From an uncultured Bacteroidales bacterium (GTDB lineage: Bacteria; Bacteroidota; Bacteroidia; Bacteroidales; UBA932), in NCBI GenBank assembly GCA_947306365.1, contig CAMZGD010000002.1, forward strand, positions 1-64,000: a stretch of DNA of 64,000 nt, read 5' to 3'. How positions within the stretch are numbered: the first letter of the stretch is position 1; the number at the start of each line of letters is the position of its first letter. The notes beneath the pieces are model-generated. The model searched no databases. It saw only the letters and a list, made by a program, of their open reading frames with translations, and was not told the origin of the DNA. Of this stretch, positions 1-51,059 are shown piece by piece. The translations under genes were made by a program, and so were the position numbers.

Positions 1-35
1 GCTACACCAAGTGGGAGAGTAGGTTGCCGCCACCT
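1..35 (+). rRNA. rrf: 5S ribosomal RNA, 3' end only (partial)
   Basis: GTGGGAGAGTAGGTTGCCGCC resembles the conserved 3' end of Bacteroidota 5S rRNA; followed at once by a strong terminator. Confidence 0.7.
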
Positions 36-38
36 TTG

Positions 39-71
39 AGCCCCGGGCTAAAAAAGCCTGGGGCTTTTTTT
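39..71 (+). terminator. Rho-independent terminator after 5S rRNA
   Basis: AGCCCCGGGCT-aaaaa-AGCCTGGGGCT followed by TTTTTTT. Confidence 0.85.
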
Positions 72-145
72 ATGCCCGAGATGGGGCTCAAAGGCGGCGG
101 CAAGTGCCGCCTCTTTCCACCGTGGGCTCTGCCCCCGAACCCCCG

Positions 146-184
146 CGTTGCTTCGCAACGGCCCGCTGATGCGGGCTTTTTTTT
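146..184 (+). terminator. Tandem hairpins CGTTGC-TTC-GCAACG and GCCCGC-TGAT-GCGGGC with T8 tract
   Basis: Inverted repeats plus T-run. Confidence 0.7.
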
Positions 185-12931: not shown

Positions 12932-13000
12932 TAAAATTCCAACCTTTTAATGCGGTTTCACAAGTTAGACGGAAGAACCGGTCAAAAGGTTGGAATTTTA
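12932..13000. repeat. Long inverted repeat with 17-bp perfect arms
   Basis: TAAAATTCCAACCTTTT (12932-12948) / AAAAGGTTGGAATTTTA (12984-13000). Confidence 0.9.
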
Positions 13001-21565: not shown

Positions 21566-21650
21566 GCCTTGGTGGTGGAATGGTAGACACGAGGGACTTA
21601 AAATCCCTTGGCCCGAAACGGCCGTGCGGGTTCGAGTCCCGCCCGGGGCA
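21566..21650 (+). tRNA. tRNA-Leu (anticodon TAA)
   Basis: Acceptor GCCTTGG/CCGGGGC, anticodon arm AGGGA-CTTAAAA-TCCCT, long variable arm, T-arm GCGGG-TTCGAGT-CCCGC; CCA not encoded. Confidence 0.95.
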
Positions 21651-21696
21651 CAAAAATAGACCGGCTCGCGAGCCGGTCTATTTTTGTGCCCCGGGC
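21641..21696. terminator. Perfect 56-nt palindrome overlapping the tRNA-Leu 3' end; probable terminator
   Basis: GCCCGGGGCACAAAAATAGACCGGCTCG followed by its exact reverse complement. Confidence 0.9.
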
Positions 21697-21743
21697 ACCG
21701 TTTCTACGGGTGGCACAGCCCCCCGAAGCCCCTCGGCCTTCGG

Positions 21744-21826
21744 CCGTCCACGCTGGAGGCCGTTTTTGTGGACGGAGTTTTGTTTTTCGGCCGTCCGTCC
21801 ACGTTTGAGGCTGTTTTTGTGGACGG
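21744..21826. repeat. Two tandem CCGTCCAC...GTGGACGG hairpins
   Basis: 21744-21775 and 21795-21826. Confidence 0.85.
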
Positions 21827-21834
21827 GAGACGGT

Positions 21835-22899
21835 TTAATGGGCAGCAATCTGGTGGAGATAGCCGGAGAACTCCTCAGAACGCGATTCCAGGAGGCCGTG
21901 CGTGGCATTTTTCATCACGAACAGCTGCTTTTTGGGAGCGTTCACCTGCTTGAAATACTCGCAGGCAATCTCGAAGTTGGTCTGATAATCCATGTCGCCA
22001 TTTATGTTATAATAGGGCATGGCATAATCGTATCTTCCCAGCAAAGACATCTCTTTTAATCCTTTGGCTGCCGCAAGAGGCATGTACTGTTCGAATACAT
22101 CCTCCTGGGAATTGAGAAAAGTCCGGATACCCCCCAGCGAGTAGCAGGAATTGAACAGAACCGTAGTAAGCAGGTTATAATCGGTGCCGTCCTTCATCAT
22201 CCCATAGCCGTATCTCTTCATTATGGCGTTTCTCAAATCGAATACCTCCGAGTCTCCCGCGTTCCTGTTCGGCGCCCATTTTTCCACCATCTCGCGCCCT
22301 TCCGGATCGTTTTCCGACCAGGTCAAGGCGGCTTCGTACAGCCGGTTTTCATTCTCTTCCCAGTCGATGAACTGCCCCGTGCCGATGAAGGCGTCGTAGT
22401 AATCCGGGTGGGCGAGGGCCAGGTTGGCACCGAAATACGAACCCCAGGAGTGCCCCAGGAGCGTAATCTTTTCCACCTGCAGATAGTCGCGCAGGAACTC
22501 GGTCATGGCTTTTCCGTCCTGCATCAAAATGCCGGCCGTGATGGTTTGCGGATGCTCCTTGTCGTAGCTCTTTCCGCATCCGCGCTGATCCCATGTGACG
22601 ACGGTATAGACATCTGCCCACTTACGCGTAAAAGCATAATCATAAAGACTCGAGGCGCTCCCGGGCCCGCCGTGCAGATAGAGCAGGACAGGATTATCCA
22701 TGTCTTTTCCGTAGATGCTTATCCACTGCTTCGACCCGTTGATATCGACGTACATCGACTTGTTGATGCCACCCTTGGGCGTAATCTTATTTACACCCTG
22801 GCCGATCCACCGGGTGGCGAAGAATAGCACGACGAGCGAGAGAAGGACAATTCCCACCCATTTCAGAATCTTTAACGAAACTTTAGCAATACGGTTCAT
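21835..22899 (-). CDS. Alpha/beta hydrolase (prolyl aminopeptidase-like)
   Basis: LYLHGGPGSASS, LLGHSWGSYFG, THGLLESRSEEF. Confidence 0.9.
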   Translation of the reverse strand: MNRIAKVSLKILKWVGIVLLSLVVLFFATRWIGQGVNKITPKGGINKSMYVDINGSKQWISIYGKDMDNPVLLYLHGGPGSASSLYDYAFTRKWADVYTVVTWDQRGCGKSYDKEHPQTITAGILMQDGKAMTEFLRDYLQVEKITLLGHSWGSYFGANLALAHPDYYDAFIGTGQFIDWEENENRLYEAALTWSENDPEGREMVEKWAPNRNAGDSEVFDLRNAIMKRYGYGMMKDGTDYNLLTTVLFNSCYSLGGIRTFLNSQEDVFEQYMPLAAAKGLKEMSLLGRYDYAMPYYNINGDMDYQTNFEIACEYFKQVNAPKKQLFVMKNATHGLLESRSEEFSGYLHQIAAH

Positions 22900-22911: not shown

Positions 22912-23208
22912 TTATAGGTGTCTTTGATAGTCCATCTTCTCATGGAGAATACGATCTACACAGATGGAACCATCTTGGTATTTCTTGTAGAAAACGATGT
23001 GATGCCCGATTTTGTAACCAGATAGCCCAGGCTTTATGACATCATATCCCTTTTCAAGGAAAACGGGCAAACTGTTCAACCCTTGAATAGTGGTGTAAAT
23101 CTGCCGATAATAAATGACAGCCTGTTCTTCTGACCAGGTTTCAACGGTATAGTCCCAAATGCTGTCCAGATCGGCAATGGCCTTTCTGGATAATCTGATC
23201 TTAGCCAT
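22912..23208 (-). CDS. RelE/ParE family toxin
   Basis: 98 aa; LSRKAIADLDSIWDYTVETWSEEQAVIYYRQI; overlaps antitoxin gene. Confidence 0.9.
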   Translation of the reverse strand: MAKIRLSRKAIADLDSIWDYTVETWSEEQAVIYYRQIYTTIQGLNSLPVFLEKGYDVIKPGLSGYKIGHHIVFYKKYQDGSICVDRILHEKMDYQRHL

Positions 23209-23449
23209 TCTTCTTCCGTTTTGCCTTCAACTCCTCCAAGTGGGACTCGAAGTCAAAGTCTTCGACATACCCGCTTGCTTCGCCTTCCTCTATGGCAGCA
23301 CGGAGAGCCGCTATTTTTTGCTCATCCTCCTCCAGCCTCCTGAGCCCGGCACGAATCACCTCGCTGGCGTTTGTATAGCGACCGCCCTGGACGCTGGCTT
23401 GGATAAATGCGTCGAAATGAGATCCTAATGCAACAGTAGTTGTTTTCAT
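23201..23449 (-). CDS. ParD-like type II antitoxin
   Basis: 82 aa; VALGSHFDAFIQASVQGGRYTNASEVIRAGLRRLEEDE. Confidence 0.92.
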   Translation of the reverse strand: MKTTTVALGSHFDAFIQASVQGGRYTNASEVIRAGLRRLEEDEQKIAALRAAIEEGEASGYVEDFDFESHLEELKAKRKKNG

Positions 23450-23490: not shown

Positions 23491-23689
23491 CCTAACAACT
23501 GTTTTCACTCCACATCATTGTGGACCACAAAAAAGTGGACCAACTCGCATTGATAGATTATTCGGTCGCATTTGGTCGCATTTTCCGCTCATTATTTGAA
23601 TACACTGGTGGTTTGATTCAACCACTTGATAGACAAAACCTTCAGTAGCCACCAAGAATACACGATAGCCACCAGTCTTCTAGCTCCTG

Positions 23690-23824
23690 CTCGAGGCACG
23701 AAAAATAGACCGGCTCGCGAGCCGGTCTATTTTTGTGCCTGAGGCACCTTTTCTACGTGTGGCACAGCCCCCCGAACCCCCTCGGCCTTTGGCCGTCCAC
23801 GCTGGAGGCCTTTTTTGTGGACGG
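23690..23824. repeat. Second copy of tRNA-adjacent palindrome/GC-box/hairpin repeat
   Basis: Near-identical to 21647-21775; core AAAAATAGACCGGCTCGCGAGCCGGTCTATTTTT at 23701-23734. Confidence 0.92.
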
Positions 23825-23832
23825 GAAACTGA

Positions 23833-24102
23833 TTAATAGGCGGCAATCCGATGGAGATAGCTTGAGAACTCCTCTGAGCGAGATGCCAGAAGGCCATGCG
23901 TGTCGTCTTTCATGACGAACATATGTTTCACGGATGCCTGATCTTTTTCAAAATACTCGCAGGCAAGCGAATAATTAGCTTGATAGTCGAGATTGCCGTT
24001 GATGTTGTAAAATGGCATCGTGTAGTCGTATCTTCCCAGGAGAGACATCTCCTTGAATCCAACCGACGCCATAAAGACCGAAAAGGGTGCGAAAGCGTCC
24101 AT
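23833..24102 (-). pseudogene. C-terminal remnant of alpha/beta hydrolase paralogous to 21835-22899
   Basis: FKEMSLLGRYDYTMPFYNINGNLDYQ...THGLLASRSEEFSSYLHRIAAY aligns with the intact copy; N-terminal domain and catalytic Ser motif absent. Confidence 0.88.
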
Positions 24103-50947: not shown

Positions 50948-50965
50948 CTGGTGGCGCTTAATTAG

Positions 50966-51041
50966 CTGATTGTCTGCCATTTATGATAAATCGCTTGCGT
51001 AAAAATGCGCAAGCGATTATGCGTAAAGCTCAGACAATCAG
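50966..51041. repeat. Nested inverted repeats (outer 11 bp, inner 11 bp)
   Basis: CTGATTGTCTG/CAGACAATCAG enclosing AATCGCTTGCG/CGCAAGCGATT. Confidence 0.92.
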
Positions 51042-51059
51042 GGATTTATCTGCCACGAT

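Follow-up and report, generated by a model that had tools for sequence, protein, structure and literature searches.

The 3′ end of the tRNA-Leu(TAA) gene in the DNA analysed here (hereafter the window, a stretch of 64,000 nt from an uncultured Bacteroidales genome) lies within a perfect palindrome of 56 nt. This palindrome is confirmed and belongs to a pattern of mirrored stable-RNA ends that extends across the lineage. It is probably the mutational footprint of fold-back template switching at stable-RNA terminators, with an apparent lack of SbcCD that would let the arms persist. Template switching is ranked as the most likely explanation, followed by a selected read-through safeguard and, in third place, by the insertion of an element.

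In the window, the inverted-repeat search places the palindrome at 21641–21696 (no strand), with two arms of 28 nt each (21641–21668 and 21669–21696) that are 100% complementary and have no loop, as the preliminary description had stated. At the base composition of the window, such a palindrome is expected by chance about 2e-12 times per 64 kb. The tRNA-Leu(TAA) gene occupies 21566–21651 on the plus strand; ARAGORN and Rfam agree on the start at 21566 and end it at 21650/51, and only the first C of CCA is encoded. The left arm contains the last two T-stem bases (21641–42), the acceptor 3′ strand CCGGGGC (21643–49), and the discriminator A73 (21650), so that the earlier reading of the first 10 nt as T-stem, acceptor, and discriminator is exact; C74 (21651) is also situated within the palindrome. 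Abutting the tRNA end, the core of a bidirectional intrinsic terminator (21652–21685, no strand) is formed by an A-tract, a GC stem, and a T-tract (21680–21685). Both the sequence and the fold prediction give a GC-rich stem and then a T-tract at the predicted transcript end. Distal to this T-tract, the mirror of the tRNA 3′ end (21686–21696, plus strand) is the reverse complement of 21641–21651. Thus, the acceptor strand is part of the terminator stem, as previously proposed, in the DNA and in the read-through RNA. An alpha/beta hydrolase gene (21835–22899, minus strand) is convergent with the tRNA. The tRNA is the sole Rfam family to pass the gathering threshold, and none passes for the palindrome; matches to mir-B8 and mir-8489 fall below the Rfam threshold and look like generic long hairpins. 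A retroelement primer-binding site was rejected: the mirror corresponds to the genomic AC-AAA sequence and not to the mature CCA end. The window gene is intron-free, and in six genomes of the same genus (G018, G024, G033, G034, G037, and G038) an insert of roughly 215–720 nt interrupts tRNA-Leu(TAA) at query position 35 and represents an anticodon-loop intron, possibly of group I.

Besides 21641–21696, the window contains two tight, near-perfect inverted repeats with arms of at least 17 nt, at 23701–23734 and at 24–44/83–103, and a fourth pair of such arm length (12932–13000) has a loop of 35 nt. A further inverted repeat of 49 nt at 50951–51056 is 73% complementary, with an 8-nt loop. The pair at 24–44/83–103 belongs to a probable 5S rRNA 3′ end (24–103, plus strand), where 24–44 is mirrored at 83–103 around a terminator. 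The motif GTGGGAGAGTAGGTTGCCGCC at 11–31 is what we take to mark the 3′ end of 5S rRNA, the incomplete piece not being scorable by Rfam.

Recurrence was read in all tRNA genes found, together with their flanks, in the genome of the window (G000) and three others of the genus (G018, G036, and G019), in which terminators frequently begin at the first base past the tRNA. A free local mirror search over 95 nt was noisy and was replaced by a register-fixed test, in which the hairpin register was held with a slip of at most 3 nt and a locus was counted if at least the last 6 bases of the tRNA itself continued the stem. Own-tRNA mirrors of at least 6 nt are present at 23 of the 111 terminator-bearing tRNA genes of the four genomes (3/23, 6/29, 6/28, and 8/31), counts that are uncorrected for shared ancestry and do not represent independent events. 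In the control, with the ends of other tRNAs substituted in the same register, 0–0.43% are mirrored. The mirrors range from 4 to 18 nt without a fixed boundary; the longest belongs to Lys-TTT in G019 (18 nt), followed by Lys-CTT in G019 and His and Ser-TGA in G036 (17 nt), and by Pro-CGG in G019 and Arg-CCG in G036 (16 nt). Each mirror is specific to its tRNA, sporadic between orthologues, and often decayed, with indels breaking many of them (Asp and Cys in G000; Val-cac and Ser-tga in G036; Phe in G018). Within the genus, mirrors are carried by 3 of 25 Leu-TAA loci and, as judged by eye, by about 10 of 21 Phe loci, and the hairpin cores at these orthologous loci are wholly different between species. 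Since an orthologous locus may carry a mirror in one species and lack it in another, the mirror state is gained and lost. Outside the genus, mirrors occur at 3 of 49 loci from six further genera of this family, each of the three in a single genus (genome G048), and at none of 40 in six genomes from other families of the order. The preliminary description regarded a terminator lacking the mirror in relatives, and a lack of other mirrored copies, as signs against its reading. A terminator or flank without a mirror is indeed found at 22 of the 25 Leu-TAA loci; many other tRNAs are mirrored, and the idea stands.

We infer a replication mechanism behind these mirrors. The starting point is an intrinsic terminator directly after the tRNA, in which the T-tract pairs with an A-tract that abuts the tRNA. 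During DNA synthesis, the nascent strand would fold at the terminator inverted repeat and either serve as its own primer or move to the other strand; copying would then replace the downstream arm by the complement of the upstream arm and continue into the upstream neighbour, namely the tRNA 3′ end, after which the strand would go back to its own template. With the tRNA fixed by selection and the 3′ flank free, the flank would turn into a mirror. The product would be a longer, perfect, bidirectional terminator, whose mirror probably has no required function and decays. As template switching predicts, the reverse complementarity of the two arms crosses the old hairpin border in register, and the copied sequence is the local upstream neighbour, both at the tRNAs (own versus other tRNAs) and at the probable 5S end. 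A mutational origin also fits the sporadic presence, free length, locus-specific sequence, and decay of the mirrors and their presence at a probable rRNA end. Furthermore, many mirrors bear indels, unlike a maintained structure, which counts for template switching. Orthologues differ in mirror presence and core; the comparison turned up no near-identical before/after pair, which counts against this reading. A single template-switch event can create an RNA hairpin or a long stem (PMC8794818). In yeast, switching lengthens the identity shared by imperfect arms where the DNA is highly transcribed (PMC3820800), and quasipalindrome template switching is linked there to high transcription (PMC7202029, PMC3820800).

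The persistence of long arms may be related to SbcCD, a nuclease that removes hairpins and palindromes; its hairpin nuclease subunit SbcD is the bacterial Mre11 homologue. In the SbcD model search, none of nine genus genomes, several of them 95–98% complete, exceeds the family cut-off, and four of five outgroups from other families of the order do. Judged from this search, the genus appears to be without SbcCD, a lack that would let palindromic arms persist, and the distribution fits a template-switch origin. The fifth outgroup, G041, falls below the SbcD cut-off and has no mirrors in the few tRNAs read; hence, the loss is not sufficient and the link is correlative. A causal role of SbcCD loss in the mirrors is likewise our inference. 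Inverted duplications at inverted repeats arise in E. coli without SbcCD and RecA (PMC3315005) and in yeast without the Mre11 nuclease (PMC10622511).

Position 69 of the tRNA bears on whether such copying feeds back into the gene. The acceptor stem of the window tRNA-Leu(TAA) contains two adjacent U–G wobbles (4–69 and 5–68). A second copy of the locus, described below, has A at position 69 and T in its mirror, and four relatives with an identical 5′ acceptor strand also have A69, paired with U4. The window gene has G at 69 and C in the mirror, so that the palindrome is perfect and the tRNA has two adjacent U–G pairs. In this single case, G69 and the matching mirror may reflect either both arms changing in concert or a chimaeric 3′ end from the duplication. 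The G–U content of the acceptor stem at mirrored loci is 0.70 vs. 0.46; mirrored stems are not generally more wobble-rich, and feedback into the tRNAs is therefore at most occasional. A broader form of the hypothesis, in which SbcCD loss exposed the 3′ flanks of stable RNAs to continuous fold-back conversion, with the result that terminators mirror their genes and changes even pass between the acceptor strand and its mirror (A69 to G), is advanced only tentatively.

A less probable explanation is that the mirror was selected, either as a read-through safeguard, whereby only terminated precursors become tRNA, or as a stronger two-way terminator between convergent units. Read-through is predicted to fold the acceptor strand into a hairpin of 26–28 bp, with a switch of about 22 kcal/mol (−81.5 vs. 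−59.1 kcal/mol); in addition, the adjoining hydrolase gene is convergent and mirrors recur in many species of the genus. However, the mirror lies past the T-tract and is absent from the terminated RNA. For a transcript ending at the T-tract, the predicted minimum-energy fold keeps the acceptor stem, and it flips only once the mirror is transcribed. Because the T-tract precedes the mirror, competition within the precursor is expected only on read-through, and the earlier suggestion that tRNA folding and the hairpin compete, coupling 3′ processing to termination, finds no support for the terminated RNA. Selection is also difficult to reconcile with the absence of the mirror at most tRNAs, including orthologues in close relatives, with lengths of 4 to 18 nt and the many mirrors broken by indels, and with the mirroring of the probable 5S rRNA end.

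Many mirrors lead into a second structure, element E, which is common to the flanks of many tRNAs and lies at 21693–21746 (plus strand) in the window as GGCACC-TTTCTAC-GG(G)NGGCACAGCCCCC-GAAnCCCC-hairpin. Its general form is TTTCTAC-GGGGGCacaGCCCCC-GAnCCCC-hairpin, GC-rich and preceded by another hairpin and a T-rich run. With a covariance model trained on tRNA flanks, strong matches are located directly 3′ of tRNAs, at the probable 5S end (106–155, plus strand, after the 5S mirror), and at remnants of tRNA 3′ ends, of which the first is located in G018, 7.9 kb downstream of tRNA-Asp, and the second adjoins a tyrosine integrase gene on contig C22; the 5S site and both remnant sites are outside the training set. 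Only three matches in the window are significant, and no E was seen by the model in outgroup loci. Mirrors and E are associated yet separable (15 loci with both, 22 with a mirror only, 6 with E only, and 114 with neither; p = 6e-7), an association not expected from simple template switching. Tandem units that combine a terminator arm, a mirror, and E also occur: after tRNA-Leu(CAG) in G019 (locus L123, 771–1082), an array carries 3.6 copies of an 86-nt unit, each with a terminator arm, an acceptor mirror, and E. Element E may plausibly act as several back-up terminators in series. In G018 (L251 and L257), a longer, related intergenic repeat (GGCCGGGAGGCGCGGGGTTCGGGGCAGCGCCCCG...) recurs away from tRNAs.

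Such recurrence 3′ of tRNAs, at the probable 5S end and at two tRNA-end remnants, together with the statistical link to mirrors and the tandem units, could suggest a mobile or self-spreading palindromic element, composed of E and the terminator, whose insertion at the 3′ ends of stable RNAs would generate the mirror. This explanation is rather improbable, since terminator cores and mirrors are locus-specific and not copies of one element, and mirrors without E and E without mirrors both exist. Viral contigs contain no exact match to the 34-nt core or to one E variant, and we know of no insertion mechanism that copies the inverted sequence of its target. A RAYT/REP origin was rejected: the Y1 transposase homologues are weak, the loci of four of them contain no E except for one 10.9-bit match, and strong E matches cluster at stable-RNA ends.

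The second copy of the locus, 2.05 kb downstream, relates to another proposal of the preliminary description, the scar of an inverted duplication at a tRNA attachment site. Alignment of the two core copies reveals a decayed duplication, in which 21631 onward aligns with 23678 onward. The duplicated unit starts in the tRNA T-loop with a degenerate tRNA-Leu 3′ end (TTCTAGCTCCTGCTCGAGGCACG; 23678–23700, plus strand) that keeps A at position 69, spans an exact second copy of the 34-nt terminator palindrome (23701–23734, no strand) and a second copy of element E (23742–23795, plus strand, a covariance-model match), and reaches the 3′ part of the hydrolase gene, a truncated paralogue (23833–24102, minus strand) forming its 3′ end. 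An exact search of the whole genome finds the 34-nt core only in these two window copies, which rules out a dispersed repeat. A ParE/ParD toxin–antitoxin pair (22912–23449, minus strand) lies between the two tRNA 3′-end copies. In G018, an orphan 3′ end of tRNA-Asp (L254, contig C1, about 139.7 kb) is accompanied by a terminator, a mirror, and E; it has the same strand as tRNA-Asp, lies 7.9 kb downstream of that gene, and is the probable far end of an integrated element. On contig C22 of G000 (L046, 1330–1460), a mirrored tRNA-end remnant (CATCTCCAC) and E beside the tyrosine integrase gene mark a probable attachment site. Site-specific recombination, with the tRNA 3′ end as the integrase attachment site and the inverted copy as an inverted att remnant, draws on all three: the degenerate ends beginning in the T-loop, both in the window and downstream of tRNA-Asp in G018, and the remnant adjoining the integrase gene. 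The window holds a direct repeat of the tRNA 3′ end, bounding 2.05 kb; however, no integrase gene was seen among the ORFs of that interval. Moreover, integration at an attachment site gives direct repeats, and the mirrors here abut the terminator stem in register, so that this origin of the palindrome is very improbable. The inverted-duplication part of the earlier interpretation is the better one and is supported by recurrence at many tRNAs, and the attachment-site part retains some support from the degenerate tRNA end that opens the second copy, against which stands the direct orientation of integrase repeats. An assembly or amplification artefact is scarcely credible: fold-back chimeras are a known artefact and the genomes include metagenome-assembled ones, but the mirrors, found at the stable-RNA ends of four separate genomes, vary in length, have a sequence particular to each locus, and show decay, and outgroup genomes read in the same way lack them.

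Most knowledge of template switching at inverted repeats comes from reporters and alignments, and no description of mirrored tRNA ends was found in the open-access literature. Here, about one-fifth of the terminator-bearing tRNA genes in a natural rumen Bacteroidales lineage carry an apparent template-switch footprint, and the lineage comes with a candidate genetic cause and clean outgroups. This opens questions on the origin of perfect hairpins, on whether SbcCD is what normally prevents them, and on whether such copying may feed back into tRNA sequence.

Compared with known systems, the mirrors resemble the quasipalindrome template-switch mutations of E. coli and yeast, where imperfect inverted repeats become longer and perfect by fold-back copying; the footprint here, however, is natural, is seen repeatedly within a single bacterial lineage, and extends into functional tRNA genes. 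In the case of template-switch RNA hairpins (PMC8794818), a single event likewise makes a long perfect stem, but those were derived from RNA sequence alignments, whereas the present stems belong to terminators next to stable RNA genes. Intrinsic (Rho-independent) bidirectional terminators share the GC stem, A-tract, and T-tract, but the stem here continues 11 bp beyond the T-tract pairing into the tRNA, which is unneeded for termination. The tRNA attachment sites of integrative elements likewise duplicate the tRNA 3′ end from the T-loop onward; in contrast, the defining repeat here is inverted and adjacent. Like REP/REPIN sequences (PMC3733652), E is a GC-rich extragenic hairpin in several copies, with CTAC beside the hairpin, but it is restricted to stable-RNA 3′ ends, with locus-specific arms and no linked RAYT found.
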